Below, one piece after another: positions 2,546 to 63,625 of a DNA stretch of 64,000 nt. This stretch comes from Rugalucina vietnamica (lineage: Eukaryota; Mollusca; Bivalvia; Lucinida; Lucinidae): contig OZ024876.1 of assembly GCA_964017185.1 (NCBI GenBank), positions 36,260,406-36,324,405 on the forward strand, read 5' to 3'. The first letter of the stretch is position 1; the number at the start of each line of letters is the position of its first letter. The notes under the pieces were generated by a model, which saw only the letters and a program-made list of their open reading frames with translations, was not told the DNA's origin and ran no database searches. The position numbers were made by a program, and so were the translations under genes.

Positions 2546-5500
2546 GTAAATGGTGATTCATATACAGCGTATATACATAGGTTTAACATGAATTTTCATC
2601 CATAGGTTTTACATATTTTGATCCATGGGTTTCATGTGTATGATAATTTTCATCCATAGACTTCATGTGGATTTTCAATCATAGGTTTCATTTGGACTCT
2701 AATTCGCATGAAACATATAGGTTCACATATTTTCATGGAAAGGAAATGGTGGAATTGTTTCTGTATCAGATTTTCAAACTCCCTTGAGTGATAATTTCCA
2801 TTGTTTGGAAAGGGTGACTAATAATTTCTATGTAATCTAGAATAGTCTGGCCTAAACCCTTATAAATGTTACTAAGGCTTTTCTCACATCAATGCTTAAC
2901 TCATATAAGCCTGGCTTCCTTTTTGTGGGACATAGGCAAACAGCATAGCCCCAGATGTGACACCGCAGAACGCGGTGTCCCATCTGTGGCTATTCTGTTT
3001 GCTTAGAGGAATTTCAAAAATGGAATAAAATTTTAAAATCACTCGTAACACCCCTAAAACTAAAAGTGGACCCATCCAATTGATAATGATGGGAAAATCC
3101 ATTCGTCAAATATGGGTTAATCTTGTTTGTAGGCCAGAAACTCCACAGAGAAACTCCTGAAGACTATTGACACAGTTTCCAGCACTATGATGGTACAACA
3201 GCCTACAGGGGGCAACACCACCATGTTTTTCACGGAGAGTATGACCATCGGTATTCAGAAACTCACCAGACATGGTCTCTCTAAAGCAAGCTACTCGGTG
3301 ACTGGGGAAGGGAATAATACAGGGGACTTTGTCTTCCCAAATATAGCCAGTAAACTGGCCAGTGGACAGGACTTTGGAGTAAAGGTGAAAATTGAAATAA
3401 ATTTTAACAGCATGGTATTGCATTCATCAATTTGAAAGGGTAAAATATAAAGGTAAATCATTTGGAATGCTTGACCTTGACCTATTTTACTGCTAGGTCA
3501 ACATAGGTAGCCCATGCATTTGAATGGGTAAAATTGTTAAAATGTCATTTGAAGGCAAACAATTACAGGAAATGGGCAAATGGACTGAAGAATATGATTC
3601 TGAAAAAATTGGAACACCAGGGGTTGGTCTGCCCCCACCCTGGTGCAATGCATGATGATACATGTATATAACCATAATATTCAAAACTCTTCTTCTGTGA
3701 AACCAGCTAAATTTTATAGGAAGCATCTATACAAAGCGGCAACCAATGTATTAATAAATCCAGGTCACATGACCAAGATGGCCACCATGTCCATATATGT
3801 TAAAAGCCCTTCAAAAGTCTTCTTCACTGAAACAGATGAACAGATTTCAAGGAAAGTTGGCATGTTGCATTAGGGAGTATAGTATGACAATGTGATTATA
3901 CAGTCAATAGACATAATTGTTCGTCACTTTTGAAAACTCCGTAGACTTCAATGTATTTTCACATTTACAATAAAAATTATCCTACTTCTGGTAGGCATAT
4001 TTTTATGATTTTGGTGTCGTTGGAAAGTGAAATAAATAAAGCAATAAACAAAGGTCATTTGGTGAAGTTTCGACTTTTCACTTTTGAAATACAAAAGTTT
4101 AAATTTTAGAGAAATTTTGAAAAAGACGTTTTCCCATTGACGTCAATGGTGACGTTGCCCAAAAATTGCCAAAGAAATTCTCGCGACTTTTTAAAAATTT
4201 GTAGCTTGAAAACGCATGCATGGAATTTAATGAAAAGACCTTTGTTTATTGCGTTATTCATTTACCTTTCAAATGACACCAAAAACAATAAAATGTGTTG
4301 ACCAGGAGAAGCAGGATACATTTTCTTGCAAACATGAAAATACATTGAAGTCTATGGAGTTTTCCGAAGGTGACGAACAATTATGTCTATTGACTGTAAA
4401 TCATTACCCTGTGATGACCTTGACCTATTTTAGGGTAAGATTAACATAAGTTGCCTACCGTGATGCATTTGAATGGGGAAAACTGTTAATATGTCATTTG
4501 AAAGAAAACAATTATAGGAAATAGGCAAATGGACAGAGGATATCAATGATTCTGAAAAATTTGGGATCCCAAGGGTTGGTCTGGCCCCACCCTGGTGTAA
4601 TATACATGTATAATATTCACGTTAGAAGCGGTCTAACAAGTGCCCACAATCTATTTTTTTTTGGAGCAAAAATAAGAAACATAGGTGGTAAACCCTTGTA
4701 TACCCCAGTTTTACTATATAAATGTGGGATATAAGGGGGTGCATATTACATGGACTTGTTTTCCTGATGGGTCTGTTTAGAAACCCTGTAGTCTTGGTTC
4801 TTGCATTCATCTGAATATAATTTGACCCACCACATAAAACCTTTAATGACCCATCACGGTTGATGCATCGTTAAACAAACAAACAAACAAACATAAGAAA
4901 ACCAACAACATCTATAGGTGAAAATAAAGAGCAGATCATAGCATCTTTGTTTTTCTCTTCACAGATAGAACAATCCCTCTTCTTCTTAAATCTGAAATTT
5001 CATGCTTCTTGCCTACTTCTGTGACTGTACAGGCCGCTTTTTGTCTGACCTGGTTGGTAACCCAGATTGTTGGTTTTCGAAGGCTAATTCAGTGTTTTGC
5101 CTGTACAGATGATGTACATGAAGAAGAATCCCTATGTGTGGAGTGATTCCTCCAGAGATGTGACATCTCCTGTGATGGCGGTATCACTAAACAGTGGAAA
5201 CAATACAGCTGTCAATGTAGATAACCTTGATGAACCTGTAGCCATCTCTCTCACTAACTTTGGTAAGGGATCACTAAAAAGTGGAAACAATATGCCAGTC
5301 AATGTAGATAACCTTGATGAACCTGTAGCCATCTCACTCACTAACTTTGGTAAGGTATCACTGAACAGAGGAAACAATATGGCAACCTTGATAAACCTGT
5401 AGCCAGCTCACTAACTTTGGTAAGGTGTCATTAAACAGTGGAAACAATACGGCAGTCAGTGTAGATAACCTTGATAAACCTGTAGCCATCTCACTGACCA

Positions 5501-8500
5501 ACTTTGGTAAGGTATCACTAAGCAGTGGAAACAATACGGCAGTCAGTGTAGATAACCTTAATAAACCTGTAGCCATCTCACTGACTAACTTTGGTAAGGT
5601 ATCACTAAGCAGTGGAAACAATACGGCAGTCAGTGTAGATAACCTTAATAAACCTGTAGCCATCTCACTGACTAACTTTGGTAAGGTATCACTAAGCAGT
5701 GGAAACAATACGGCAGTCAGTGTAGATAACCTTAATAAACCTGTAGCCATCTCACTGACTAACTTTGGTAAGGTATCACTAAGCAGTGGAAACAATACGG
5801 CAGTCAGTGTAGATAACCTTAATAAACCTGTAGCCATCTCACTGACCAACTTTGGTAAGGTATTACTAAACAGTGGAAACAATACGCCAGTCAGTGTAGA
5901 TAACCTTAATAAACCTGTAGCCATCTCACTGACTATTTGGTTAGGTATCACTAAACAGTGGAAACAATATGGCAACCTTGATAAACCTGTAGCCAGCTCA
6001 CTAACTTTGGTAAGGTATCGCTAAACAGTGGAAACAATATGGCTGTCAGTGTATATAACCTTGATAAACCTGTAGCCAGCTCACTAACTGGTAAGGTGTC
6101 ACTAAACAGTGAAAACAATACGGCAGTCAGTGTAGATAACCTTGACAAACCTGTAGCCATCTCACTAACTTTGGCAAGGTATCACTAAACTGGTGCAGAA
6201 ATCCGCTTTCTCATGATGCGGCCCATATTATGCTCTATTTCACACCCACTAAACGGTCAATTTGTACACCGTCGGAGTGAATCGTATATATAATTTGACC
6301 ATTTTCCGGAGTGAAAGTTGACCTGGTAAACAAACCGTAAAAAAGGAGAGAGAGTTAAACTAACGTAAGTTTATTTTGTTATTTTACTTTTGTTTAAAAA
6401 TACGAGAATGTCATATGATGGGTATTTGAATAAAGATCATACACGCACAAAAGCACATCCAAAAGCTTATGCATTTTGCCAAAATCATTTTCGGCGTGGA
6501 AAATACCTACGTGAAAAATGTTGCATCGAGATGAAATGCAACCTGGCATTCCAATCTAAACAGTCTGGCTAGGTTTTTATATGCCAGGGATGCCAATAAT
6601 ATTGGGAAATAATTATTAATCATGCCGTTTTGGAAATCATGCGTTTGTGTAATCTGCGGAAGGGCCGTATTTCCAAAGCGTACTAATTGACCAGCGGAGC
6701 CCAATTTAACTAACAGAAAAATGTGTTTGAAATGTTTAAGCGTTTTTCATGAAACATATCAAACTCCAGAACTGAAATACAGTTGAATTTTCTTGATTAT
6801 TAAATATATGTTATAATTCAAATAAAAAAGAAAAGAAAAATGACACGAACGTTTAAGAGAAACGTTCATTTGTACTTCCCTTTGAGACTCTGCATGTCTC
6901 TTTTATGTTAATATCTGGAGGTGTCATATTTTATCAGGCAAGAAATTTGGTGAGAAAAAACGAGGGAAAAGATGCTTACCTTGCAGGAATTTATTTTTTT
7001 CTTATTTGTGTACCATTTGACAGCTTGGTGTAAAATTTGACATATGGAAAAATATTATAGCTGATATGTACCTCCCAGGTTCGGATTGGCAAGTGCAGCT
7101 GGTACCACACTATTGGTGGGGGGCAAGAGCCCAATAAATACAATTGCGATAAGGAATATGAGCCGTCTCGTTAGAAAACCTTTTTCAGCGTAGCTGATCA
7201 GCATATCTTTTTTCGATACAAGAAAGTCCAATTACTTCGCTTTCTATAGTGTCAGACATGTAGCCCAATTAGTTTTCTTTCTATATTAGAAGTACTCAAT
7301 ATATAGCCATCTTCTGTGAGTGTACAACCTGATCCGGTCAAAATGCCCAAACCGCATTTTTGCTCATTTGATGAGTAACTCTCGGCACCTTGAGATATTT
7401 TTAATTAGACATCAGAACTCTGCAAACTGTAAGTGAACGAGATACTGAGTAACCAGAGTGTAGGTTAGCCTGTGGCTTCTTTCAAATTTCCAGTACACTG
7501 ATTTCAATGGCAATCCACAGGAAAACAGAGAAATAACATAGATAAAAAATAGTTTACAAATTTCGGTCTTTGCTTTTACTATATTGGAATGTTTTTTTGT
7601 TGTTTTTTTTTTTTTTTTTCGCTTTGCATGCAATGTCTGGATTATACTTAATCATTTGCTCACAGTATGAAATAATTGGTTGTCGTGTCGGCCGGTATGT
7701 GAAAATAGGGTTTTATGATAAAAATAGACCCCCACAAATGCAAAGAATGCTATTTCTATGGTTCTTCTTTGCGCTACTACAACGTCTACTGGTCGAATGT
7801 ATAACAATTGTACTTGATTTTAAAAGAAGATATTATATAGATAGATGCATCTGGGAATACAGCTGTATATTTTATTCTATTCAAAATTCTAAAAATCATT
7901 TTACCACAATCTGAGGGGGAAACGGCTCTTAAACACTTTACTCCTTTATTTTTAACGATTTGTTAAGTCCCGATGCCATTCGAATTTAAGCAGGAATAAT
8001 AAATCAGATTCTTTGATGGGATATTTATGCCCCCAACTTTGAAAAAGTTGGAAGGGCATATTGCTTTCGGCTTGTCTGTTTGTCTGTATGTGTGTGGGTG
8101 CGTCTGTTAACTTTTGAACCATGAATGCTAGGGTTTTGAAATTTCATATGCACATTCCTCATGAAAAAATAGTTGACCCGTATTTTTTTTTCATATCCGA
8201 GTTATGCCCCTTTTCTGAGTTATGTCCCTTTGAAAACAAAATTTGAAAGGCTTGTGTGCAAGATATCTCAAGAAGTATTTGAGCTAGAGCCTTCATATTT
8301 GGTATATTGGTTGGGGCTGAGGAGTAGATTACCTGATTAACTTTTGAGAACTTTACCGCAAATTTTGACAAAATATGGAATTTTGAAAGTTTGCTTATTT
8401 TTTCAACTTTTCAGTGAAATTTGAAACTTTAAACTGAGAATGCTAGGGTTTTGAAATTTCATATACATATTCCTCATGAAAAAATAGTGGATACATATTT

Positions 8501-11500: not shown

Positions 11501-14500
11501 CATCATAGTTTGATAAAATTATGACCCTAGGATGACCTTGACCTAATTTACGGCAAGATCAATTTTGGAAACATAGGCTTTAACATGGGAAAAAGTGAAA
11601 ACTATGGATTTTTTGAAAACTATTGCAGCCTGATGCCTGAAAAGTGGTAGATGCAAACAACTAATGGAGTAGATGAAGGTATGTGATTAATGTAGGTCAA
11701 GGTCATCTCTTGACCTTGGCCAGTCTGTCGTCCATACACACTTTTCAAAGATCTTCTTCTCTGAAACTGCTGGGACAATCAAAGTGAAATTTTATGTGGA
11801 GCATCCATGGGTAGGGGAGACAAAAGTTTAAATGCGAAATCCAGGCCACATGACCAAGATGGCTGCCACGCCCATATATGGTAAAAAGCACTCAAAAATA
11901 TTCTTCTCCAGAACCGGTTGGCTGATTTCCACGAAACTTGGTATGTAGCATTGGGAACTTCAGCCCATCATAGTTTGATAAAATGATGACCCTTGGATGA
12001 CCTTGACCTAATTTACGGCAAGGTCAAATTTGGAAACATAGGCTTTTACATGGGAAAAAGTGAAAACTATGGATTTTTTGAAAACTATTGCAGCCTGATG
12101 CCTGAAAAGTGGTAGATGCAAACAACTAATGGAGTAGATGAAGGTATGTGATTAATGTAGGTCAAGGTCATCTCTTGACCTTGACCAGTCTGTTGTCCAT
12201 ACACACTTTTCAAAGATCTTCTCTGAAACTGCTGGGCCAATCAAAGTGAAATTTTATGTGGAGCATCCATGGGTAGGGGAGACGAAAGTTTGATCACGAA
12301 ATCCAGGTCACATTACCAAGATGGCCGCCACGCCCATATATGGTAAAAACCACTCAAAAATTTTCTTCTCCAGAACCGGCAGGCCAATTTTCGCGAAACT
12401 TGGTATGTAGCATTTGGGACTCCAGCCCATCCTAGTTTGATCAAATGATGACCATAGGATGACCTTGACCTATTTTACGGCAAGGTCAATTTTGGAAACA
12501 TAGGCTTTTACATGGGAAAAGGCGGAAACAATGGATATTTTGGAAACTGTTGCAGTCTGAGACCTGGAAGTTGCTAGATGCAGACAACCAATGGAGTCAG
12601 TGAAGGTAAGTAATTAATGAAGGCCAAGGTCATTTCTTGACCTTGACCCAAGGTCATTTAAATATCAAAATTAAAATTGTGGTTTTCTCATAAATCACTG
12701 GGTTTGGAAACTATTGCAGCCTGAGACCTGAAACTTTGCAGATGCAGACAACTTATGAATTCAATAAAGGTGTGTGAGTATTCAAGGTCAAGGTCATTTC
12801 ATGATGACTTAATACTGCAGGATCAGGCTTCAGGTGAGCGTTCTCAGGACCAATGGTCCTCTGGTTTTATGAAGTCTCGGTGTCTTAGAAGCCGCAAATT
12901 TATAGTCCATCATATGACATTTTCGGATTTTGTATAAAACTAAAATAGAAGAAGTTATCTTACTTTGATTGCGATAGTCCTGATGTTTCCGTCCTATTTA
13001 TACCGGTCAACTTGTACTCCGGAACTGGTCAAATTATTTCATAATTGTACGCCTTCGGTGTACAAATTGACCGTTTACCCGGCGTGTATTTTGATGTGGC
13101 ATTTAGATGTAACATGGATCATTGTCGTATACTAAAAGATTAAAAGACAGATTTTTCTATATTTAATTTGCATTGTAGCCTTTGGATATCTAAATCACAC
13201 AAATTGATTTGGATTCAAAAGATAGCATTATCAAGAGAGCCCCGTCGTGAGAAAACTGGATTTTTGCCGATGTGAAAACAAAGGCCCAGATCAGCTTCGC
13301 TGTAAGCACCTTTGTTTTAGCTACACGCATAGTACAATTTCTCTTTTTCTTAAATCCGAAATTTCAAGCTTCTAGCCTGCTTCTGTAACTGTATAGATTG
13401 GTTTGTGTCAGATCTGGTCGAAAACCCCGTTTTCTTGCATCGTGGCTCAAGAGGTTGTGGGGCACTTTACCTGATGCAAATTCAGTCTTCAATTTGCTCA
13501 AATTTAATGTCCATCAAGAATTGCAAATCTAAATAATTTTATTGGAACCGCCTCATCAGAAAACCAACAATCTGCATATTATGCAAAATCAAACGTGCAG
13601 ATCATCTGTGCAGTAATAGACAGCACAGCTGATCAGTGCCATTTTTTTTCGCTCCATAGATAGTATGATGATGCTTCTTTCTAAATCTGATATTTTTTTC
13701 CTTCACAGGGCCTGAGGCTTCCTCTGTCCACACATTTCAAGTTGCTCTGCGGAAAACAGTCGGAAATTCAACAGATAAGGTGACCGGCAACCTGACTGGA
13801 AATGTGACCGGCAGTGTGACCAGCAATGTGACTGGCAATTTCACCTTTCTGGCATCCAGAGCAAATATGTTGAGCTTCAATGTCAGTGCTGTCACAGGCA
13901 GAACTTTAACTATTAATATTGCCCCTGTCAGTAATGTAACATCCTTTAAAATGCTTATAAGAACAGACAGGAAACCCAGTTTTGATGATATAATAAACGA
14001 GGGGTTCTTGTATCCAGATGAACTTCAACATTCACATTTTGCTAGTTTCAAATACCTGCAAACAAATTATACCCCAGCAAGTTTGGATGCGGAAAGGACA
14101 ATATATATAACTGAAGACAGCCCGTTTTTGTCCAGTTCCAACTTCTCAGGAACCTACTATATTGGTCTGACATTAGATCTTAATCATACAGAGACAGTGG
14201 ATACATTAATAGCAGATTACCGGGACTGTTTAGGAAGTAACGTTACTGACTGTAGTGACGTCGTCAATGTGACTATTGATATCCAGACCAAACAGTTAGG
14301 GTGTATCTACTGGGTTGAGGGTAACAAGACCTGGTCTAGTCAAGGTTGCGAGGTACGAGCACTGTTCTATCATCTAAATTGGTCAAAATAAGCTAAAAGC
14401 CCCATGTCAGTTTTTCTCCATAGGCATAAAGTTAAATTACTGAAGTTGTTGATAACTTTTTATTTCAAAAATTGCAAAAGCTATTGAAAACGCTTCCCAA

Positions 14501-15584
14501 ATCCATGTTAGACAACAACATCTAAAACATAATTACACAAAGTTTTAAGAGGAAATAGTGCAATTCCTTTACTTTGTAAATCCAAAATTTCCAGCCTCTA
14601 GCCGTCTTTAGTGCTTGTACAGCTCGGTTTGTATCGGACCCGTGTTCAGAAACCACTGTTGGTTTTCTCACATCGGGGCTCAATTATCATTTTTAGGTTT
14701 CTCCTTATACGACTCGGGACCAGATAGAATGCCTGTGTAGTCATCTGACAGCATTTTCCGGCAGTATCCTTGTTCTCCCCAACATGGTGGACCCATTCGA
14801 TGTATCGCTGTTCCTGACTTTCTTTGACAATCCCGTGGTAGTTACGGCCGTGATAATTGTCTGGGTGATCTATTTCTTTCTGATACACTGGGCAAGACAA
14901 GAGGACAAGAAAGATACAGAAAAGGTACAAGAAAATATTAACAAAGGAAAACAATTCAGGGTTTCTGAATGGTACACGAAGTCACTTACAAAACCCCCCA
15001 TGCCCATATTGGTATATGTGGACAAAAGCCCCAGCTCTGACACAAACATGACCATACTGTCACAGAGAATGGCTGAAAGCCATTACAAAAACATGCCCAT
15101 GCAATTCAATATACAGAAAAATTTTTGGTTGTAAAAATGAAGATTTTTACTGGAAAAAACTTGATATTTTTGCTCAAAACATAGATTGTGGGAACACGTT
15201 AGAACCGCCACAGCAAGGCAGTTCCAGTGAGTGCCCACAATCTATGTTTTCAATCAAAAATAAGAAAAATATGTATACCCCTACAAACCCCACTTTTACT
15301 ATATAAAAGTGGGGTTTAGGAGGGTAATTTCATTGCACAGACATGTTTTCCTGATGGCTGAAGCTTCAGGATTGGGAAGAAGATGGATTGTTCACAGTTT
15401 TTAAGAGAATTACATTGTCTTCAGTTCAGATTTGATCAGTATGTTGTTAATGTAAGAGAATGTCAGGTAGGTAGAAATTTAATAATTCAATAATTTTTTG
15501 CAAGATTTTTGAAAAAAAAAAAAAAGCACAGTGCTTCCTATGTGTACAGTGGTTGGTGTATTTTTGTTTCATGTTTTTTTTTGT

Positions 15585-27600: not shown

Positions 27601-30600
27601 CATTCCAAAATTTAAGAACTGACATATTTAGCTGCATATAGATACCACACTCCAAGATGTTATTGTCAGCGAAATTTGAAATTCTGTCAGGGAAATGTCA
27701 GGGAATTTTGTTTCCGCCTGAGCCTGGCAACCCTGATAATATTCAAACAGCTTAATTCTTCTCTGAAACCATTTTGCCAATCAAAGCCAAACTTTATGTG
27801 GAGCATCCTTAGGAAGAGTGAATGAAAGTTTTATAAATGGTCAAGGTCACATGACCAAGATGGCCACCCTGGCTATAAATAGCAAAAACCTTAAAAAACC
27901 TTCTTCAGAACCCAGAAGGCCTATGATTTTGCAATTGGCATGAAGTATCTGGGAATGGAGTTTTACAAAGTTTATATAAATCATGACCCTAGGATGACCT
28001 TGACCTTTTTACGGCAAGGTCAACACAGGGCACCCATACATTTGAATGGGAAAAATAGGAAAATGTCATTTTATGCCAGAAAACTTGCTAGGAATGAGCA
28101 AATGGACAGAAGATCTATGTTCATGAAAATATTTTGGCCACGTCTGCCCCTGTCCCGGGGCTATATACATATGTATATGACCAAAATATTCAAAAAAGAT
28201 GCATTGTTAGAAAATGCTGTATGACAACAAATTTCTAATTTGAGATTAGCATATGTAACAGATCTCAGGTGAGTGATTACAGAATCATTGGTCCTCTTGT
28301 GTATTTTTATTGCTCATAGATATCAAATGTCGTAGTATCTTCATCCTGATGTCTTGGTGATTCTATGCTTACTATGCACAGATGATTTTTATTTATACAT
28401 GTATGTAGATATTCAAAATGAATTTTTAGCAGCAAAAAGATCATCTGTATAAACCTGTAGTCATACTTTATATTCACTCAAAAGTTGCAGATCTTTTGGA
28501 CCAAACTTTCTCAAAAACCTTTGCATGGGAAAACCAAGAATTTGCATAGGCAAAAACAAAGGCGTAGATCAGCTTCTCAGTAACTGCGAAGCTGATCAGT
28601 GCCTTTGTTTTCGCTACACGGATAGTACAATTCCTCTTCTTTCTAAATCCAAAATTTCCAGCCTCTAGCCATCTTCTGTGCTTGTACAGGCCACTTTGTG
28701 TCTGACCTGGTCGGAAACACAAATCGTTGGCTCTCATATTATAGCTTAATGTTACAGGCTGATAAAGTTGAGTTGATGTACCAGTACTTTGAGGATGTCT
28801 TGTTCCCATCCCTGGCTGATATGTCTGTAGCAGATCATGACTACGCTACGCCGGGCTCCAGTCATTTCCTGCTCGGACCATTCAGGCTGAGACAACAGAG
28901 GATTGAATCAGGTACAAACCATTTAAAGTTGGTAATTTTTTTCGACTTGCTATAATTACTTTAGTACATATAGTTAAAAGTTCAAATGGTATTGTCCAAA
29001 ATATTCACCTGGTGTTGAGCTTTATGCATTGCATAAGTTAAATCACTGTGACGCAGTATAATAAAGAATCGCCTCTGGTTCAAACACTATCGTTAAGACT
29101 CAATAAAGTATGTGAAGAATGTGTCCCCCATATCAAAGCCAATTTACCACAATGTTATCTCAAGAGCCATAGCTCAGGGTTTGTAACTTGGTGGTCCCTG
29201 GTTCGAATCACACAGAGGGAGAAAATTTAAAGAGTTATTTTTTTTTATTTTATATACATGTAATAAAATGCACATTTTATCAAAAGTAATCACACAGAGA
29301 ACATGATTTTCTTGCTTTCTGGCTCTTTTCATTTGCCATATTGTGCAACATGGGTTTACAAACACAACATATCGACAATATGTCTAAGCAGAAGTCAAAC
29401 CATATTCTATCTTCCAAAGCAAAAGAAATTATTAATATTTCTGACACATTAAAAAAAAAAAAAAAAATGAAAAGTATACATAAGAAATAATAATAAAAAA
29501 TGTGTTGATCCTGGGACTCGAACCACCGACTGTAGGAGTTTTGATTGTAAAATGTCAAGTAACACTGTTGAGATCTGCGTGCTCTACCATTTGAACCATG
29601 CGCTCCTGACAATGTTATCTAGCATAGCAACTAAGACCTTATATATGCTAACAATCATGAAGAGTCGTGAAGATCATACAAACAATTACGAAGTGTCCCA
29701 AAGATATATTTAGAATTGCAATGAACTGTACACTAATAGAGTTCGACGTTGGTAAACAATATATCCAAATGGGTCTTTAGAAGTTGCATAGCAGCATAGG
29801 TCTCAACACCCACAATCTATGTTTAAATATATGAAAACTATCCAAACTTTTTGACTGAAAATTTTCAGTTTTTACAACTTGAAAATCTGTTTTATTGCAT
29901 GGAATGGTCTGTATTTGCAGGTACATGTAAAAGCACACACAGATCTCTATCGGCCAGATTTGGGGAGACATTCCCAGAGTGTGTAGGTTCCTACTGGCTG
30001 GGTGACGAGGACACTGGCTCGTACAATAATTCCTGGGCCAAACCGCTGACAGACCCACCGACTGACGGTGTTGATCACTGGTCACATCAGTCTATGTGGA
30101 AACTCAAAACAGTGCCGTACAGTGGAATTCATGCCACCTACTCTGGCGGTGGTTATGTCCTGGAGTTCCCGCAAGCTGCCGACTGGACCAGTATTTTAGA
30201 TAGTATGAAGAACACCGACTGGATTGACCCTCGGACTAGAGCTATTTTTGCCGAGTTTAATCTGTATAATCCTAATGCAGATCTGTTTAGTGTGGTCATG
30301 ATATTCTTTGAATTTACAAACATTGGAGGAATATTTCCCAATCATCAGATATTCACGGCTAAACTGTATCATTATTCTTCAAACATAGGAACCTATGTGG
30401 CAACATGTGAGTTTTTCTTCCTACTCTTCAATATTGCTTTCACTTACATTGAAGTGAAACGTTACAAAAAATTGGGAAAGAAGCAGTACTTTGAAGACAT
30501 ATGGAGTATTGGCGAAGTGATCCAGTTAGCTCTATCTTACACTGTCATTGGGCTCTTCTTCAAGAGGATGTTATCGGTCAATGATATTATGTACGACTTC

Positions 30601-31128
30601 AGGATGAGCGATGGACAGACATTTATAAGCTTCTATACTGCCATTGCGTGGGATTTCATCCTGGGCTACGTGATGGCGTTTCAGCTTGCATTCGTAACAT
30701 TAAAATCTGTGAAACTGCTCAGATTTAACAAGAGAATGTTCATGATTTCGGACACAATTACATTTGCGCGGAGCAATCTCATTAGCTTCGCCTTCATGTT
30801 TGTAGTATTCATGATAGCCTTTGGCCACTTTACAAGCCAGGCATTCGGTTCCATTCTATATGGCTACAAGAACTTTGGTAGCAGCATTTTTACCATGCTC
30901 AATTTTGCCCTCGGGGCTTCTGATCTGCCCGGTATGTATGCGGCCAATAGGATTCTAGGGCCAATTTTCTTTGCCGTTTTTGTGTTCTTTTCTCAGTGGT
31001 GTTTTCTGACCATCTTTGTTGCCATCCTGAATTTTGGTATTAGTGATTCCAAGACAAAATCTGAAGAAAGGAGGAATAAATTTGAACTTATTGACTATGT
31101 TTTAGATAAAGTTAAATCAGTTTTCTGA
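2425..31128 (+). CDS. Polycystin-1 family (PKD1-like) receptor-channel gene, 5' part missing
   Basis: Thirteen exons join in one frame: 2425-2545, 3133-3384, 5109-5262, 13709-14352, 14697-14924, 15891-16011, 20736-20895, 21375-22039, 23513-23642, 25138-25394, 25989-26284, 28758-28911, 29921-31128. All introns are GT-AG, and the phases match at all twelve junctions, giving 1462 residues plus stop. Domain order is GAIN part (1-370), GPS (about 374-410), TM1 (436-455), PLAT (about 470-590), TM2-TM5, TM6, extracellular polycystin (TOP) loop, TM7-TM11 with the pore between TM10 and TM11. This is the 11-helix plan of polycystin-1 family proteins, which are autoproteolysed membrane proteins that partner with or form TRPP-type cation channels. 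The upstream ectodomain (REJ, PKD or lectin modules) would lie before position 1. It could be PKD1, PKD1L1, PKD1L2 or PKD1L3-like; the sequence here does not decide which. Confidence 0.93.
2892..3120. mobile_element. TTAA-ended MITE (family T)
   Basis: It starts TTAACTCATATAAGCCTGG, carries a GTGACACCGCAGAACGCGGTG imperfect palindrome and CCATCTGTGGCTATTCTG, and ends CAAATATGGGTTAA. It stops 12 bases before window exon 2. Related copies are at 23036-23496 (split by a family G MITE) and 24464-24695. Confidence 0.7.
3133..3384 (+). CDS. PKD1-like exon 2 of window: GAIN region
   Basis: Exactly 84 codons lie between the TAG acceptor (3130-3132) and the GTGAAA donor (3385). The segment runs from ARNSTEKLLKTID to GQDFGVK and contains two N-glycosylation sequons (NST, NTT). 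The pattern of a helix, then a strand with TTMFFTESMTIGIQKL, is typical of the GAIN domain just before its beta-sandwich in polycystin-1 family members. The downstream intron immediately enters a Helitron-like repeat fragment. Confidence 0.85.
3440..4615 (+). mobile_element. Headless Helitron-like core fragment (family H2)
   Basis: H2-type core units (CATTTGAATGGGTAAAATTG, GGTTGGTCTGCCCCCACCCTGG, CACATGACCAAGATGGCC, GATGACCTTGACCTA) lie on both sides of the 3901-4396 MITE. No head or tail motif is present. Confidence 0.6.
3901..4396. mobile_element. Long-inverted-repeat MITE, Tc1/mariner-like
   Basis: About 496 bp with extended inverted ends, CAGTCAATAGACATAATTG and CAATTATGTCTATTGACTG, flanked by TA on both sides. 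The inverted similarity continues inward (TAGACTTCAATGTATTTT / AAAATACATTGAAGTCTA). CAGT ends and a TA duplication suggest a Tc1/mariner-type MITE. It is nested in a Helitron-like core fragment (about 3440-4615). Confidence 0.75.
4615..4769. mobile_element. Fold-back MITE, family F, 5'-truncated
   Basis: It carries the second arm of the palindrome (CCCACAATCTAT), the CCCCAGTTTTACTATATAA segment and the right end GTTTTCCTGATG. The first arm is lost. Shorter remnants are at about 2265-2345 and 16350-16450. Confidence 0.6.
5109..5262 (+). CDS. PKD1-like exon 3 of window: GAIN region, source of the 87-bp repeat
   Basis: The acceptor is CAG at 5106-5108 and the donor is GTAAGG at 5263. The exon has 51 codons plus one base (phase 1). 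It begins MMYMKKNPYVWSD, matching the conserved Met-rich and Asn-Pro-aromatic stretch of polycystin-1 GAIN domains, and ends in NLDEPVAISLTNFG. From 5183 onward the exon is the first copy of a tandem array that continues past the donor. A second identical donor at 5350 is reached in frame and would add exactly 29 residues. The third lies beyond an in-frame stop at 5400-5402. The phase to exon 13709 is correct with the first donor and also with the second. Confidence 0.88.
5183..6190 (+). repeat. 87-bp tandem array derived from a coding exon and its splice donor
   Basis: Twelve units start near 5183, 5270, 5357, 5427, 5514, 5601, 5688, 5775, 5862, 5947, 6017 and 6098. Most spacings are exactly 87 bases (29 codons); two units carry a 17-base deletion (period 70), and the last few are 81-85. 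Each unit encodes a version of VSLNSGNNTAVSVDNL and NKPVAISLTNFGK, and most contain the donor-like TTTGGTAAGG. Central units are nearly identical, which suggests recent unequal exchange or slippage. The first unit is functional exon sequence (5109-5262); the rest lies in the downstream intron. Confidence 0.95.
8027..9212 (+). mobile_element. Helitron-like non-autonomous element, family H1
   Basis: The 5' end TATGCCCCCAACTTTG is followed by its hairpin complement, and a GTCTGT-rich lead follows. Three units of about 300 bases each contain TTTTGAAATTTCAT, GAGTTATGTCCC and CAAGATATCTC. The 3' end is CAGTTGGGGGCATAG, a GTGTTTTACAAACAC hairpin, then CTAG before TTTT. It lies inside the larger 6241-13086 element. 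Confidence 0.78.
9213..10716. other. Unrecognised interior of element A
   Basis: AT-rich, no supported ORF. One possible exon start (9343) reads MENVRRKAFECDTCKKQYTR, which resembles half of a C2H2 finger, and is then cut by a repeat beginning near 9411 (AGTAATTTTATATTACTGATCG) that is also present near 48970-49110. Confidence 0.4.
10717..12864 (+). mobile_element. Helitron-like non-autonomous element, family H2
   Basis: The 5' end AGCTCACCTGAGCC is followed by GGCTCACAAGGTGAGCT (hairpin) and a CGTCC/GTCGTC microsatellite-like lead. Four core units of roughly 420 bases contain CACATGACCAAGATGGC, GCCCATATATGG and GATGACCTTGACCTA. The 3' end is CTTCAGGTGAGCG, then the AGGACCAATGGTCCT hairpin, then CTGG before TTTT. 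It lies inside the 6241-13086 element. Confidence 0.8.
13237..13448. mobile_element. GAGCC MITE (family G), target duplication AAGA
   Basis: About 212 bp with a deletion through the central palindrome. AAGA flanks both sides. It lies between the 6241-13086 element and window exon 4. Confidence 0.8.
13554..13705. mobile_element. GAGCC MITE (family G), truncated at a splice acceptor
   Basis: It starts GGAACCGCCTCATCAG and runs through the palindrome to the CTTCTTTCTAAATCTGA stretch, where it stops at the acceptor of window exon 4. The pyrimidine-rich tract used by that acceptor appears to be MITE sequence or to abut it directly. Confidence 0.65.
13709..14352 (+). CDS. PKD1-like exon 4 of window: GAIN beta-sandwich and start of GPS
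   Basis: The acceptor is CAG at 13706-13708. Two bases complete a Gly codon, then 214 codons run to the GTACGA donor at 14353. The exon is rich in N-glycosylation sequons, including a VTGN-type four-residue repeat near its start. Its end, with Cys374, Trp377, Trp384 and Cys389 (numbering from window exon 1), forms the first half of the GPS motif. The exon encodes most of the beta-sandwich that performs autoproteolysis in GAIN domains. The intron upstream is about 8.4 kb, inflated by a 6.8-kb inverted-repeat element. Confidence 0.92.
13780..13842 (+). repeat. 12-bp in-frame repeat encoding VTGN-type glycosylation sequons
   Basis: Within window exon 4, a 12-base unit (four codons, Val/Leu-Thr-Gly/Ser-Asn/Ser) repeats five times with point differences. 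It creates four N-x-T sequons in about 20 residues (NLT, NVT, NVT, NFT). It sits in the extracellular GAIN region, so it is predicted to be a glycosylated spacer. Confidence 0.85.
14550..14681. mobile_element. GAGCC MITE (family G), 3' half
   Basis: Matches the second half of the family (CAATTCCTTTACTTTGTAAATC, GCCTCTAGCCGTC, GTACAGCTCGG, GGTTTTCTCACATCGGGGCTC). It ends 15 bases before the start of window exon 5. Confidence 0.7.
14697..14924 (+). CDS. PKD1-like exon 5 of window: GPS cleavage site and TM1
   Basis: This exon has 76 codons, phase 0 at both ends, between a TAG acceptor and a GTACAA donor. It carries the second half of the GPS: Cys402 and Cys404, then Ser-His-Leu-Thr, with predicted self-cleavage between Leu407 and Thr408. 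The tethered segment AFSGSILVLPN follows, then the first membrane helix at about 436-455 (PVVVTAVIIVWVIYFF). The tail ARQEDKKDTEK is cytoplasmic by family topology. The catalytic His-Leu-Thr triad is intact, so cleavage competence is expected. Confidence 0.95.
15081..15356. mobile_element. Fold-back MITE, family F, complete copy
   Basis: The left end is CATTACAAAAACATGCCC and the right end is GACATGTTTTCCTGATG. The palindrome around 15172-15250 has GATTGTGGG/CCCACAATC arms. The flanks are GCTGAAAGC on the left and GCTGAAGC on the right, a probable 8-9 bp target duplication with one change. It begins 157 bases downstream of window exon 5. Confidence 0.75.
15565..15815 (-). mobile_element. tRNA-derived SINE with poly(A) tail
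   Basis: Minus strand: a box-B-like GGGTTTGAGCCCCGCCC near 15770, a central AGGGTTCTCCCGTTTTCGCCCC segment typical of SINE core domains, and a long poly(A) (poly-T on the plus strand at 15590-15616). It lies between window exons 5 and 6. Confidence 0.65.
15891..16011 (+). CDS. PKD1-like exon 6 of window: PLAT domain, first part
   Basis: The acceptor is TAG at 15888-15890 and the donor is GTACAT at 16012. The exon has 40 codons plus one base. The sequence includes YIYLVCVVTGWWRDAGTTAN, the signature first strands of a PLAT/LH2 domain (strand, TG, then a Gly-Thr-x-Ala turn). PLAT domains are intracellular lipid- and protein-binding beta-sandwiches located between TM1 and TM2 in polycystin-1 family proteins. 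Confidence 0.93.
16043..16277. mobile_element. GAGCC MITE (family G), complete, target duplication ATAT
   Basis: A 235-bp element with inverted ends GAGCCTCGACGCGAGAAAACC and GGTTTTCTCACGATGCGGCTC. It has an off-centre perfect palindrome GATCAGCTTCGCGGTTACCGCGAAGCTGATC flanked by AAACAAAGGCGC. It is flanked by ATAT on both sides and sits in the intron after window exon 6. Confidence 0.88.
17049..17453. mobile_element. Fold-back MITE, family F, interrupted
   Basis: The palindrome is at about 17144-17230, followed by TATACCCCTGCACACCCCAG and AAGTGGGGTTTAAGGGGG. Then an unrelated segment of about 135 bases (about 17296-17430) precedes the right end (CACGGACATGTTATCCTGATG). The inserted segment resembles 45128-45245. 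Confidence 0.65.
17995..20650. repeat. 23-bp tandem array split by a Helitron-like element
   Basis: The unit is TTTCWCATGGATYTACARTCMTG, often as a 46-bp dimer (CTCATGGATTTACAATCC then CACATGGATCTACAGTC). It occupies 17995-18381 and 20173-20650; the H3 element fills the gap. Open frames across it (for example 20156-20434) are repeat artefacts. Confidence 0.88.
18382..20172 (+). mobile_element. Helitron-like non-autonomous element, family H3
   Basis: The 5' end TATACCCCCCGCAAAA is followed by a near-complementary hairpin arm (TTTTAGGGGGGTATA). The core has about eight units of roughly 185 bases (AAATCAACTCCTCCTA, TTTCAGTATTTCTTTT, GACATGTTCCACACA). The 3' side carries TTTTGCGGGGGGTATA and ends TTTCTAG before TTT. 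It splits a 23-bp tandem array at a GTTTCAC step. Termini and target mirror those of family H1. Confidence 0.78.
20736..20895 (+). CDS. PKD1-like exon 7 of window: PLAT domain, middle
   Basis: The acceptor is TAG at 20733-20735 and the donor is GTAAAT at 20896. Two bases close a Gly codon, 52 codons follow, and two bases begin a Trp codon. It contains the PLAT signature CFQTGSEDWFLVTT then SLGELREVTLWHDNMGVNPS, the conserved Trp-His-Asp-Asn-x-Gly core of the domain. The 4.7-kb intron before it holds a GAGCC MITE, a broken fold-back MITE, a 23-bp tandem array and a Helitron-like element. Confidence 0.94.
21000..21195 (-). mobile_element. tRNA-derived SINE
   Basis: On the minus strand the head reads GGGGGCGCGGTGGCATAGTGG, TAGAGCGTCGGACTCCAAATT and a box B GAGTTCGATTCC, a tRNA-like half with RNA polymerase III boxes and a Trp-like CCA anticodon loop. 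The body continues GACATGACTGAAAAATTGTT and GGGACG. It lies in the intron between window exons 7 and 8. It is not counted as a functional tRNA because it lacks a proper acceptor pairing and continues into a SINE body. Confidence 0.8.
21375..22039 (+). CDS. PKD1-like exon 8 of window: end of PLAT, TM2 and TM3
   Basis: The first base completes the Trp codon of the PLAT Pro-Ser-Trp-Tyr motif. The PLAT domain then ends with HVYVKDIQLHKSWHF. The amphipathic linker leads to TM2 (about 646-664, LTCALSLLLTTMLTNIMFYG) and TM3 (about 687-711). The SIIIGIESSLIMFPINLLI segment is a hallmark of polycystin-1 family members. A Ser/Asp/Lys-rich cytoplasmic loop follows to the GTAAGG donor at 22040. The outgoing phase is 1. 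A GAGCC MITE begins only about 19 bases into the next intron. Confidence 0.95.
22059..22316. mobile_element. GAGCC MITE (family G), with small internal duplication
   Basis: It runs from GAGCTGCGATGTGAG to TCATGAAGTGGCTC, with an internal direct duplication of TTTTCACATGTAGGCAAAAAGTTAG. It begins 19 bases after the donor of window exon 8. Confidence 0.78.
22509..23015. mobile_element. Two adjacent GAGCC MITEs (family G)
   Basis: One copy runs from GAGCTGCGGCGC (22509) to about 22745 with a decayed right end. The second runs from GAGCCACTGCAT (22765) to CATGCAGTGGCTC (23015) and contains a duplicated GGCCTGTTAGTGTCA segment. Both keep the central palindrome. Confidence 0.75.
23036..23496. mobile_element. 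TTAA-ended MITE (family T), split by a GAGCC MITE
   Basis: Left half 23036-23201 (CTGGCCTCCTTTTTGTGGGAC, GATGCCGCAAAATACAGCAT); right half 23436-23496 (AAATGAAAGTGGACTCC to CTGGGTTAA). Its right end is 16 bases before the acceptor-defined start of window exon 9. Confidence 0.72.
23202..23435. mobile_element. GAGCC MITE (family G), complete, target duplication AAAT
   Basis: 234 bp, ends GAGCCGCCTCGTGG and CCCATGAGGCGGCTC, flanked by AAAT on both sides. It interrupts another MITE (23036-23496) whose halves match the intact copy at 24464-24695, proving the boundaries. Confidence 0.9.
23513..23642 (+). CDS. PKD1-like exon 9 of window: cytoplasmic loop, with tandem acceptors
   Basis: This exon was found by phase requirement: it needs phase 1 in and phase 2 out. 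It has an acceptor TTTATTCAG ending at 23512, 42 codons (MDNGVYSDTDRSSN to KIKSSK) and a GTAGGT donor at 23643. The split codon joins it to the next exon as Ile, followed by LPWWF. It is Ser/Asn/Lys-rich with no domain, as expected for the variable loop between TM3 and TM4. A second acceptor with the same TTTATTCAG core lies 24 bases downstream (exon start 23537) and keeps the frame, so it would drop eight residues. Confidence 0.72.
24464..24695. mobile_element. TTAA-ended MITE (family T), uninterrupted copy
   Basis: From AACTCATTTAATCCTGGCG to AAATATGGGTTAA with a GACGCCGCAGAACATGGCGTC palindrome. It provides the intact reference for the split copy at 23036-23496. Confidence 0.72.
24805..25039. 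mobile_element. GAGCC MITE (family G), complete, target duplication ATTT
   Basis: 235 bp, flanked by ATTT on both sides. It is inserted within the first of two tandem copies of an intron-exon boundary segment, 12 bases upstream of the decoy acceptor at 25052. The palindrome is GATCAGCTGTGCAGTAACTGCACAGCTGATC, a sequence variant of the usual TTCGC type. Confidence 0.9.
25138..25394 (+). CDS. PKD1-like exon 10 of window: TM4 and TM5
   Basis: One base closes the incoming codon; 85 codons plus one base follow to the GTACAA donor at 25395. It starts LPWWFLYIAWVIVI, a near-invariant block of polycystin-1 family proteins, then a second helical region with SWLVSFLTGFTQSAFVTQPLKV. TM4 is at about 829-853 and TM5 at about 865-895. 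A partial duplicate of this acceptor and exon start lies 85 bases upstream (25053); using it would shift the frame. Confidence 0.95.
25411..25652. mobile_element. MITE (family S) with CTCAGCTGAG/GGTTATAAAAC motifs
   Basis: Inverted features are GTGCTCAGCTCATCTGAGACT at the left and AGTCTCAGCTGAGTTGAGCA at the right, with ATGTTAAAATGCCAAC palindromic blocks and an AGTTTTATAACCTTGAGACC terminus. A second copy lies at 33208-33452. It sits between window exons 10 and 11. Confidence 0.65.
25989..26284 (+). CDS. PKD1-like exon 11 of window: start of polycystin channel unit (TM6)
   Basis: The acceptor is CAG at 25986-25988. Two bases complete Asp, and 98 codons run to an AAG/GTAACT donor at 26285. 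The acidic lead DEDEIYLHE and the helix LLQKIRDRLYVEWLMDMTLRD precede TM6 (about 957-976, S1 of the TRPP-type unit), followed by the start of the extracellular loop. The donor choice after FFLAK is inferred from splice strength and from phase 0 to the next exon. A GAGCC MITE starts 15 bases downstream of the donor. Confidence 0.88.
26299..26535. mobile_element. GAGCC MITE (family G), complete, target duplication AAAT
   Basis: 237 bp with ends GAGCCACGTCACG and CGTGAGGCGGCTC, flanked by AAAT on both sides. It starts 15 bases after the donor of window exon 11. Confidence 0.88.
26565..26662 (+). repeat. tRNA-like SINE remnant
   Basis: GTGTAGTATCTTGCTGGAAG then AGCATCAGACTCCAAATC and GTTCAGATCCTATTGG resemble decayed A and B boxes with the same CTCCAAAT anticodon loop as the SINE at 21000. 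A similar short trace, CATAGCTCAGG to GGTTCGAATCACAC, is at 29168-29216. Confidence 0.45.
26772..28299 (+). mobile_element. Helitron-like element, family H2, interrupted by a hAT-like MITE
   Basis: The head is AAGCTCACCTGAGCC at 26772, two core units follow, and the tail is TCTCAGGTGAGTG then CATTGGTCCTCTTG before T at 28300. It is interrupted at 27291-27735 by a MITE with CAGGGTTGCCA ends. It sits in the intron between window exons 11 and 12. Confidence 0.75.
27291..27735. mobile_element. hAT-like MITE nested in a Helitron-like element
   Basis: 445 bp with ends CAGGGTTGCCA and TGGCAACCCTG. The interior repeats CAGGGAAATG and GTCAGGGAATT. The flanks are ATAAATT and ATAATATT, an imperfect 8-bp duplication of a site seen intact (ATAATATTC) in sister H2 units. 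CAGGG ends and an 8-bp site fit hAT. Confidence 0.78.
28758..28911 (+). CDS. PKD1-like exon 12 of window: extracellular polycystin loop
   Basis: The acceptor is CAG at 28755-28757 and the donor is GTACAA at 28912. The exon has 51 codons plus one base. It reads ADKVELMYQYFEDVLFPSL, matching the helix that precedes the TOP (polycystin mucolipin) domain, and ends SHFLLGPFRLRQQRIES, the family's Leu-Gly-x-x-Arg-hydrophobic-Arg-Gln motif. The upstream GAGCC MITE remnant ends about 25 bases before the acceptor. Confidence 0.92.
29500..29612 (-). repeat. tRNA-like remnant, split
   Basis: Minus strand: GGAGCGCATGGTTCAAATGG, TAGAGCACGC (box A-like), a spacer of about 40 bases, then GGTGGTTCGAGTCCCAGGATC (box B-like). 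The spacing is too long for a normal tRNA. Probably a SINE head or tRNA pseudogene. Confidence 0.5.
29921..31128 (+). CDS. PKD1-like terminal exon: TOP domain, TM7-TM11, pore and C-terminus
   Basis: The exon starts after the CAG at 29918-29920 and runs 401 codons to a TGA ending at 31128. It contains the TOP domain with paired Cys residues (1063, 1081), the YSGGGYVLEF block and the AIFAEFNLYNPNADLFSVV core. Helices follow: TM7 (1219-1238), TM8 (1256-1274), TM9 (1297-1321), TM10 (1346-1365), a pore segment (about 1380-1400) and TM11 (1405-1432, ANRILGPIFF onward). The cytoplasmic tail is short, about 30 residues (SDSKTKSEERRNKF), with no clear long coiled coil. At the filter position, family channels such as PKD2 have Leu-Gly-Asp; here it reads Leu-Gly-Ala-Ser-Asp. 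Single-exon coding for this region is itself notable. Confidence 0.96.
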
Positions 31129-39929: not shown

Positions 39930-42436
39930 AGCTCACCTGAGCCGAAGGCTCACAGGTGAGCTAATAGGATAGGCAGGCATCCGGCGTCCGTCGTCGTCGT
40001 CCGTCGTCGTCATCCGTCGTCGTCCGTCGTCCGTCCACAATTTCAAAGAAGAATATTTCTGAAGCTAGTAGGCCGATCTTGATCAAATTTAATGTGAACC
40101 ATAATTGGGTTGGGGGATTGATGGCATTAGGTTTTGGAGCAGATTGTATCAAAATTGTGGTTTCCATGGCAACAGATAGGTCCCATAGACTTACAATGGG
40201 AAAAACTAAAAAAATCTTCTTCTCTGAAACCACTAGGCCCACAGCTTTGATATTTGGTATGTAGCAATGGCTAATGGTCCTCTACGTAAATTGTGCCATT
40301 CATGCCCCTGGGGTCAAATTTGGCCACGCCCCGGGGTGTCGATAGTCTCCATAGACTTACTATGGGAAAAAAATTAAAAAATCTTCTTCTCTGAAACCAC
40401 AGGGCCCACAGCTTTGATATTTGGTATGTGACAATGGCTAATGGTCCTCTACATAAATTGTGCCAGCCATGCCCCTGGGGTCAAATTTGGCCACGCCCCG
40501 GGGGTGGATAGTTTCCATAGACTTACAATTGGAAAAACTAAAAAAATCTTCTTCTCTGAAACCACTAGGCCCACAGCTTTGATATTTGGTATGTAGCAAT
40601 GGCTAATGGTCCTCTACATAAATTGTGCCATTCATGCCCCTGGGGTCAAATTTGGCCACGCCCCAGGGGTTGATAGTCTCCATAGACTTACTATGGGAAA
40701 AAAAATGAAAAATCTTCTTCTCTGAAACCACAGGGCCCACAGCTTTGATATTTTGTAGGTGGCAATGGCTAATGGTCCTCTACATAAATTGTGCCAATCA
40801 TGCCCGGGGGGTCAAATTTGGCCACGCCCCGGGGGTCGATAGTCTCCATAGACCTACAATAGGAAAAAACTAAAAAAATCTTCTTCTCTGAAACCACTAG
40901 GCCCACAGCTTTGATATTTGGTATGTAGCAATGGCTAATGGTCCTCTACATAAATTGTGCCATTCATGCCCCTGGGGTCAAATTTGGCCACGCCCCAGGG
41001 GTTGATAGTCTCCATAGACTTACTATTAGAAAAAAATTAAAAAATCTTCTTCTCTGAAACCACAGGGCCCACAGCTTTGACATTTTGTATTTGGCAATGG
41101 CTAATGGTCCTCTACATAAATTGTGCCAATCATGCCCCTGGGGTCAAATTTGGCCACGCCCCGGGGGTCGATAGTCTCCATAGACCTACAATAGGAAAAA
41201 ACTAAAAAAATCTTCTTCTCTGAATCACAGGGCCCACAGCTTTGATATTTGGTATGTGGCAATGGCTAATGGTCCTCTACATAAATTGTGCCAGCCATGC
41301 CCATGGGGTCAAATTTGGCCACGCCCCGGGGGTGGATAGTTTCCATAGACTTACAGTTGGAAAAACTAAAAAAATCTTCTTCTCTGAAACCACTAGGCCC
41401 ACAGCTTTGATATTTGGTATGTAGCAATGGCTAATGGTCCTCTACATAAATTGTGCTATTCATGCCCCTGGGGTCAAATTTGGCCACACCCCAGGGGTTG
41501 ATAGTCTCCATAGACTTACTATGGGAAAAAAATTAAAAAATCTTCTTCTCTGAAACCACAGGGCCCACAGCTTTGATATTTTGTATGTGGCAATGGCTAA
41601 TGGTCCTCTACATAAATTGTGCCAATCATGCCCCTGGGGTCAAATTTGGCCACGCCCCGGGGGGTCGATAGTCTCCATAGACCTACAATAGGAAAAAACT
41701 AAAAAAACCTTCTTCTCTGAAACCACAGGGCCCACAGCTTTGATATTTTGTATGTGGCAATGGCTAATGGTCCTCTACATAAATTGTGCCAATCATGTCC
41801 CCGGGGTCAAAATTGGCCACGCCCCGGGGGCGGATAGTCTCCATAGACCTACAATAGGAAAAACTAAAAAAATCTTCTTCTCTGAAACCACTAGGCCCAC
41901 AGCTTTGTTATTTGGTATGTAGCAATGGCTAATGGTCCTCTACATAAATTGTGCCATTCATGCCCCTGGGGTCAAATTTGGCCAGGCCCCGGAGGTTGAT
42001 AGTCTCAATAGACTTGCTATGGGAAAAAATTAAAAAATCTTCTTCTCTGAAACCACAGGGCACACAGCTTTGATATTTTGTATGTGGCAATGGCTAATGG
42101 TCCTCTACATAAATTGTGCCAGCCATGTCCCTGGGGTCAAATTTGGCCACGCCCCGGGGGTAGATAGTCTCCATAGACTTACAATGGGAAAAACTAAAAA
42201 AATCTTCTTCTCTGAAACCAAAAGGCCCAGAGCTTCTATATTTTGTATGTAGCAATGTTTGGTAGTCCCCATTATAAATTGTGCCAGTCATGCCCCTGGG
42301 TCAAATTCGGCCATGCCCCGGGGGTCAATAGTGTCCATGCATAGACTTTCATTGGTTGATTCTCAATTAATTTAAATCTCATGAGCTTACAATGTGATAA
42401 TCTCTCAGGTGAGCTACAGGACCAATGGTCCTCTAG
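39930..42436 (+). mobile_element. Helitron-like element, family H2, best-preserved ends
   Basis: The head AGCTCACCTGAGCCGAAG is followed by GGCTCACAGGTGAGCT (hairpin) and a CGTCGTC-rich lead. The core has about 13 units of roughly 165 bases with TCTTCTTCTCTGAAACCAC, GTCAAATTTGGCCACGCC and GCAATGGCTAATGGTC. The tail is CTCAGGTGAGC, the AGGACCAATGGTCCT hairpin, then CTAG before TTCT. Here the 3' tetranucleotide is a perfect CTRR, as in Helitrons. Confidence 0.82.
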
Positions 42437-43734: not shown

Positions 43735-44810
43735 AACGAGCTAGTATAATTGGAAGGTTTATCTCCACTATCCTCTGATCTAGCTGTAAGGTTTATCACC
43801 ACTAAACTCTGATCTCATTATAAATTTTGTCATCACCATGACCCAATGGAATTGTTAGGATTGTCAGCACTACAAACTAGTCTAATTTTAAGCTTAATCA
43901 CCACTATCCTTTGGTCTCATTCTAAGGTTTGCCATCACAACGAGTTAGTATAATTGGAAGGTTTATCACCACTACACTCTGATTTCATTGTAAGGTTTGC
44001 CATCATCATGGGCTAGTCTAATTGTTAGTTTATCACCACTTCACTCTGATCTCATTGTAAGGTTTGTCATCACCATCAACTAGTCTAATTATAAGGTTTA
44101 TCACCACAATACTCTGGTCTCATTGTTAGGTTTGCCATCACCATGGGCTAGTCTTAGTGTAAGCTTTATCACCATAATCTTCTGTTCTCATTAATAGGTT
44201 TGTCATCACCATCAACTAGTCTAATTATAAGGTTTATCACAACTATCCTCTGATCTCATTGTTAGGTTTGTCATCACCATGGGCTAGTCTTATTGTAGGG
44301 TTTATCACCACTATCCTCTGATCTCATTGTTAGGTTTGCCATCACCATGGGCTAGTCTTATTGTAAGGTTTATCACCACTACCCTCTGGTCTCTTTGTCA
44401 TAAGGTTTATCACATCATTGTAAGGTTTGTCATCACCATGGGCTAGCCTTATTGTAAGGTTTATCACCACTACCCTCTGGTCTCTTTGTCATAAGGCTTA
44501 TCACAACTATCCTCTGATCTCATTGTAAGGTTTGCCATCACCATGGGCTAGTCTAATTGTAAGGTTTATCACCGCTATCCTATGGTCTCATTGTAACGTT
44601 TGTCATCACCATGGGTTAGTCTAACCGTAAGGTTTATCACCACTATCCTTTGGTCTCATTGTAAGATGGGCTAGTCTAACCGTAAGGTTTATCACCACTA
44701 TCCTTTGGTCTCATTGTAAGGTTTGCCATCACTATGGGCTAGTCTAATTGTAAGATTTATCACCACTGTCCTCATTGTAAGGTTTGCCATCACCATGGGC
44801 TAGATTAATT
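43735..44810. repeat. 68-bp tandem array (satellite-like)
   Basis: About 15 units of GGGCTAGTCTAATTGTAAGG, TTTATCACCACTATCCTCTG, ATCTCATTGTAAGGTTTGCC, ATCACCAT with point changes and a few shortened units. A degenerate single copy (ACCATGAGCTAGTCTCATAAA) is at about 58830-58890, just outside element E. Confidence 0.88.
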
Positions 44811-62351: not shown

Positions 62352-63130
62352 TACTTGACAACCACTCATCAGAAAGCATTCATACTTGGACCATAGATAC
62401 CTGTAGGGTTAGCTTTCATTCCATGGCATCGGGCCCCTGGATCCAGGCCAGGGGGTGGGGCTGGAGGTTAAAATCTAGAACACCTTCAAAAATGGCAATT
62501 CTTGTGTTAAAGTTTTCTAGAAGTCCATATCTTGACAACCACTCATCAGAAAGCATTGATACTTGGGCCATTGACACCCTGTAGGGTCGGCTTTCATTCC
62601 ATGGCATCAGATCCCTGGGTCCATGCAAGGGGGTGGGGCTAGAGGTTAAAATCTAGAACACCATTAATTATAATGGCTTTTCTGTGATATAGTATTCTAG
62701 AAGTCTATATATTGAAAACTTTTTATCAGAGGGCTTTCATACTTGGACCATAGGTACCCTGTAGGGTTGAGTTTCATTTCATGGCATCAGATCTCCGAGT
62801 CCATGCCTGAGGGGTGGGGCTGGAGGTTAAAAACTAGAACACTATAAAAAATAGATGTACTGCTGTGTAACTTTTACAAGGAGTCCATATCTTGACAACA
62901 ACTTATCATAAAGCATTCATACTTCATACACTTTAGGTTCCATGACATCGGACCTCTGGGTCGGAGTCAGGGAGGCGGGGCTAGAGTTCAAAATCTAGAA
63001 CTCCCCGAATTTTTTTTCTTTTTATTTCTTAATAGAAACAACTTAGGAAGATGGTTGGTCTTTCATCTTTTGACTTTGTGACACTGACTTGTGTGTCATG
63101 ACGGTAAGGGTCGGTTGACCTACTTTCCAC

Positions 63131-63625
63131 GGTTCAGTGATTTTGCCTTATATCTTGACACTCAATTAGTATATTTTCTTACTTCTTTCAGATTATGAGT
63201 GAGTACGACCAGGCCTTTGACCCCAATATACTTATAGGTCACTGTGACCTAATTTCATGGTTCAGTGATTTTGCCTTATATCTTGACACTCAATTAGTAT
63301 ATTTTCATACTTTTTTCAGATTATGAGTGAGTATGACCAGACCTTTGACCCCAATATACTTATAGGTCACTGTGACCTAATTTCACGGTTCAGTGATTTT
63401 GCCTTATATCTCGGTATTTAAATGGTTTATGAACAAACTTTTTTCAAAGTATGTTTGCGTATGACAAGACCTTTGACCCTGAAGTAGTCCGAGGTCACTG
63501 TGACCTAATTTCACGGTTCATTGATTTTGCCTTATATCTTGACACTCAATTAGTATATTTTCATACTTTTTTCAGATTATGAGTGAGTATGACCAGACCT
63601 TTGACCCCAATATACTTATTAGGGC
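63131..63625. repeat. 128-bp tandem array
   Basis: Four units with an exact 128-base period (starts 63131, 63259, 63387, 63515): GGTTCAGTGATTTTGCCTTA, ATCTTGACACTCAATTAGTA, CAGATTATGAGTGAGTA, CCTTTGACCCCAATATAC and GGTCACTGTGACCTAATTTC. Confidence 0.9.

Follow-up and report, generated by a model that had tools for sequence, protein, structure and literature searches.

Gene context of the tandem array

The window, that is, the whole 64,000-nucleotide stretch of DNA that was analysed, carries on its plus strand a polycystin-1-like gene, located on contig C8 of a 1.09-Gb genome of 47 contigs. From position 5183 to about 6190, the final 80 bases of one coding exon of this gene (exon B), together with the first bases of the intron, are repeated in tandem into the following intron (Table 1). 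The exon model is our own, built from open frames, splice signals and homology. According to this model, exons A, B and C form one continuous reading frame, with junctions of phase 0 and phase 1, and the array is continuous with the coding end of exon B. Pfam analysis located a GPS motif in the joined exons (9.8e-9), upstream of the frame encoding the polycystin and PKD channel domains. This order of domains is that of a polycystin-1-like gene, in agreement with the original prediction that the array is hosted by a polycystin gene. The repeated exon had also been assigned to a GAIN domain. Such a label would derive only from the placement of the exon before the GPS motif, as the Pfam hit and the PDB matches to adhesion receptors span just the region around this motif and Pfam returned no GAIN match. 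Adhesion GPCRs occupied five of the 15 PDB rows (best E 0.013) and all these alignments started at or after query residue 312, whereas the repeated exon corresponds to residues 85-136.

Table 1. Features of the polycystin-1-like gene and its donor array (positions in the window)
Feature	Position	Strand	Remarks
Exon A	3133..3384	+	Ends in phase 0, donor GTGAAA at 3385; in-frame join to exon B
Exon B	5109..5262	+	51 codons plus 1 base; acceptor AG at 5107-5108; final 80 bases seed the array
First donor, GTAAGG	5263..5268	+	Homologous to the donor of the paralog; phase-1 join to exon C
Second unit, u1	5263..5349	+	Would be retained if donor 5350 were used; adds 29 residues
Second donor, GTAAGG	5350..5355	+	In frame
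Third unit, u2 (70 bases)	5350..5419	+	13-base and 4-base deletions; holds the TAG at 5400-5402
In-frame stop, TAG	5400..5402	+	Reached from each of the 10 donors at 5420 and beyond
Units u3-u11	5420..6173	+	Donors at 5420, 5507, 5594, 5681, 5768, 5855, 5940 (GTTAGG), 6010 and 6091; 6174 (GCAAGG) at the end
Last unit, truncated	6174..6190	+	From the sequence
Exon C	13709..14352	+	Preceded by TTCACAG; first two bases complete the phase-1 codon; related exon in the paralog
Open frame, second half of the GPS motif	14697..15131	+	Pfam, joined exons
Open frame, polycystin domain and PKD channel	29827..31125	+	PF20519, 2e-27; PF08016, 8.8e-40

Anatomy of the array

Each repeat unit contains a splice-donor consensus. 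Counting from the exon, we found 12 donor positions, ten of them GTAAGG, one GTTAGG and one GCAAGG, and nine of the ten GTAAGG donors have in common the 9-base site of donor 5263. Thus, the array of about 12 repeats and the ladder of near-identical 5′ splice sites that had been proposed were both recovered. The period had been given as exactly 29 codons; this holds for six of the 11 donor-to-donor spacings, as their succession is 87, 70, 87, 87, 87, 87, 87, 85, 70, 81 and 83 bases. Similarly, a 17-base deletion had been placed in the third unit, ahead of a stop codon. The stop codon does precede all later donors, but the missing bases correspond to two separate losses, of 13 and 4 bases. Both losses were found, at the same two places of the alignment, in the other 70-base unit, u9 (5940-6009), while the 4-base loss is also present in u11 and is enlarged to six bases in u10. 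The central copies are nearly identical, as had been stated: u4, u5 and u6 (5507-5767) are three consecutive identical units and u7 differs from them by one base. The identity of these units makes the proposed polymorphism in copy number plausible. The losses common to several units, together with the identity of u4-u6 and the near identity of u7, suggest that exchange between units has taken place and that the expansion is recent.

Other readings of the array were considered and discarded. It contains long open frames, of 209 codons on the plus strand and 220 codons on the minus strand, which are explained by a period mostly divisible by three rather than by genes. The plus-strand frame gave nine Pfam rows, two of them clearly over the cut-off and two just over it; we judged them repeat artefacts because the families are unrelated and no single stretch passes by itself. 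A mobile or dispersed repeat was also rejected, since a DNA search of the 1.09-Gb genome yielded at least seven matches, all of them within the array.

Donor clustering against the genomic background

We counted the heptamer GGTAAGG on both strands of the window and of 20 sampled 10-kb loci (42 strand-sequences). Ten sites occurred here in less than 1 kb, while the other 41 strand-sequences contained at most one per 1 kb. The remainder of the plus strand of the window had three further sites, far apart and never more than one per 1-kb stretch. Donor clustering is therefore far beyond chance. We also compared the array with other tandem repeats detected by TRF in 264 kb (period 20-250, at least four copies, overlapping rows merged). 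Only one of the 19 comparable arrays, the polycystin array itself, carried a strong donor in most of its copies, and the next highest value was 0.38 per copy. This background is small, as it comprises the window and 20 10-kb loci located on two contigs, and the donor patterns were of our own choice. Arrays of fewer than four copies were excluded before counting.

One of the excluded arrays is a 128-bp repeat at 63116-63619 of the window (3.9 copies), whose consensus contains TTTTTTCAG ATTATGA GTGAGT, that is, acceptor-like and donor-like sites seven bases apart. Several other elements of the window deserve mention. A long array of 34-bp units at 43740-44810, with ATTGTAAGG in its consensus, showed no strong donor by the background pattern, and the two open frames just past it had no Pfam match. 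A reverse transcriptase frame derived from a retroelement lies on the minus strand at 55548-56681 (PF00078, 1.4e-22).

Predicted strength of the donors and their products

Donors were scored with a donor frequency matrix and by pairing with the U1 5′ end. Predicted U1 pairing of the GTAAGG donors of the array was −8.5 kcal/mol, compared with −6.9 for the donor of exon A and −5.7 for that of exon C. Among the 3,495 GT sites of the window outside the array, pairing as good was found in 34 and a matrix score as high in 38. By the same matrix, donor 6091 (5.43) scored above donor 5263 (3.8). Since nine of the ten GTAAGG donors have an identical 9-base site, the sequence by itself gives 5263 no advantage.

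The consequences of using each donor were read from the three-exon model. With donor 5263, exon B has 154 bases and the model reads 350 codons with no stop. With donor 5350, the exon has 241 bases and the model reads 379 codons in the same phase, as u1 stays open in the reading frame of exon B. The 29 extra residues that had been foreseen are thus encoded, and they are a near-copy of the preceding 29. Products of the ten remaining donors, eight of which are full GTAAGG sites, meet the stop codon in the third unit. Transcripts with a premature stop of this kind are expected to undergo nonsense-mediated decay.

We scanned positions 5263-6300 for acceptors, applying an approximate rule (an AG preceded by C or T, with a pyrimidine content of 60% or more over 18 bases). 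No good acceptor was found, and a single AG passed the rule. With this one weak candidate, the formation of an intron inside the array was discarded on the sequence. Intron gain by tandem duplication would imply a new intron with both splice sites taken from the duplicated segment, and no such intron is apparent here; the position of the intron that follows exon B is common to the paralog described below.

Comparison with a paralog and test for coding constraint on the second unit

Searching the same genome at the protein level produced 20 matches with E values up to 1. Nine of these rows were units of the array itself and five fell in one paralogous polycystin-like gene on contig C2 (72562501-72571800, hereafter L028), where the relative of exon B has 53% identity. 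This exon starts at the homologous methionine, and its last base is the first of a glycine codon, followed by donor GTAAAT. The next exon of L028 opens with the two bases that complete this codon, so that exon end and phase are those of exon B. A blastn comparison of the array with L028 gave one 29-base match (E 0.10), and none of the tandem repeats listed for L028 was a donor array. Since L028 shares exon end and phase with exon B but lacks the array, donor 5263 was most likely inherited, as far as a single paralog can tell. The array would then have arisen in the lineage of this polycystin copy; its loss from L028 appears less likely. Tandem arrays of other kinds do occur between the exons of L028. 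In addition, a 165-bp unit (GATAGTCTCCATAGACTTACAATGGG...) forms arrays both at 40175-42338 of the window and in the L028 region, and is thus a dispersed tandem repeat of the genome.

We then compared the exon copy, u1 and the majority sequence of u3-u7, omitting the first two codons, which contain the donor. Eleven changes could be assigned. Synonymous to nonsynonymous changes were 3:0 in the exon copy, 0:3 in u1 and 1:4 in the array (exon versus the rest, Fisher P = 0.024; neutral synonymous share, 0.24). Taken at face value, these counts hint that the exon evolves like a protein and its copies like an intron. The signal is weak: u10 also has one of the three changes assigned to the exon, and the proline codon found in u1 is present in u8 and L028 as well and may for this reason be ancestral. 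When the doubtful sites were dropped or re-assigned, P became 0.067, 0.083 or 0.18. Raw pairwise counts also varied, from 1:5 for exon versus u1 to 6:2 for exon versus u3. By itself, u1 did not differ from the neutral expectation, its three changes being too few to exclude constraint. The direction of the result fits a non-coding second unit, with low strength. The proposal that the ladder is functional therefore found no support, as L028 has the position of 5263 only and u1 showed no coding constraint in this weak test.

Discussion

Our preferred reading, to which we assign a probability of roughly 0.7, is that an exon boundary has seeded a minisatellite in which 5263 is the dominant donor, 5350 is at most a minor one and later donors are unproductive. 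The duplication is real and probably mostly passive. Starting from what was observed directly, namely the anatomy of the array, its reading frames, the array-free exon end in one paralog and the restriction of DNA matches to the array, the events may have been as follows. A segment made of the terminal 80 bases of exon B plus some 7 intron bases would have been duplicated in tandem, creating a second donor. Exchange between units could then have expanded it into an intronic minisatellite, with each unit bringing its own donor. Such an expansion may have been tolerated in the intron because every unit has the exon end and a donor, and splicing at the first donor leaves the protein unchanged. 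Donor 5263 would remain the main one. Leakage to 5350 would give, at most, a minor in-frame product lengthened by 29 residues ahead of the GPS motif, and use of later donors would lead to the stop at 5400-5402 and, presumably, to decay.

The closest competitor is a two-isoform switch, with 5263 and 5350 both substantially used, a protein with or without the duplicated 29-residue segment before the GPS motif, and the stop in the third unit limiting the ladder to two products. The identical 9-base sites of the two donors and their common frame and phase (exon lengths of 154 and 241) speak for it, and in human IFI6 two repeat units located downstream are reported to serve as donors (PMC4526556). 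The insert is, however, absent from L028 and the 0:3 count in u1, though from a weak test, points the other way, so that we consider a switch unlikely. The opposite extreme, an inert minisatellite of the intron in which splicing never takes place at the extra donors, draws on the same array-free paralog and constraint counts as our preferred reading, of which it is the limiting case, and hence the odds of the two overlap. Complete silence of the extra donors would nevertheless be surprising, given that the extra GTAAGG sites equal the first one and that their predicted U1 pairing is stronger than that of the exon A and C donors; in this strict form, inertness seems rather doubtful.

Models in which the later donors have a regulatory task are far less plausible. 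In one of them, these donors compete with 5263, more units produce more stop-bearing, degraded transcripts and output is tuned by the length of the array. The stop is indeed reached from ten of the 12 donors, most of them (8/10) intact, but the other two have decayed and there is no sign that the donors are maintained, which makes this rheostat very improbable. We attach an equally slight chance to a more elaborate splicing dial, in which array length would be polymorphic and identical tandem donors would share U1 recruitment. The first two would give protein with or without the duplicated 29 residues that precede the autoproteolysis site, and the others would feed decay, so that repeat number would set both isoform ratio and polycystin output. 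The array illustrates how a minisatellite can originate at an exon boundary, and ten near-identical donors in a row constitute a clean natural experiment on the effect of position alone on splice-site choice.

Comparison with known systems

Closely similar cases have already been described in human and yeast genes. The repeat unit of human IFI6 is short, 12 bp, whereas the units of the polycystin array are mostly of 87 bp and only one extra donor is predicted to be productive. The two cases are alike in that the units themselves contain splice donors; in IFI6, the use of two downstream units and three resulting mRNA species are reported (PMC4526556). Variable tandem repeats have also been described at human exon-intron boundaries, where minisatellite expansion is said to alter splicing (PMC2812944). 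The polycystin gene likewise shows a minisatellite expansion at such a boundary. The human repeats lie in segmental duplications, have transcript support and are said to create novel introns (PMC2812944), while the polycystin array multiplies the donor only. Passages on the intronic minisatellites of earthworm metallothionein and sea bream myostatin contain no donor arrays. A literature search covering titles and the starts of abstracts, with most subscription papers outside its scope, returned no array of this type in a polycystin gene.

Intron gain from the tandem duplication of AGGT segments has been reported for ATP2A1/ATP2A2, for 24-bp repeats in fission yeast and for a potato RdRp (PMC4974935). 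As in those cases, new splice sites in the polycystin gene come from tandem duplication, and in fission yeast several copies also stand in a row. In the polycystin gene, by contrast, the duplicated segment already held the donor of the exon, and no convincing new acceptor or new intron is apparent. The polycystin array is, at this stage, an anatomical case with known parallels and a useful test bed for splice-site choice, and our preferred explanation fits the reports on IFI6, on human exon-intron boundary repeats and on tandem AGGT duplications.
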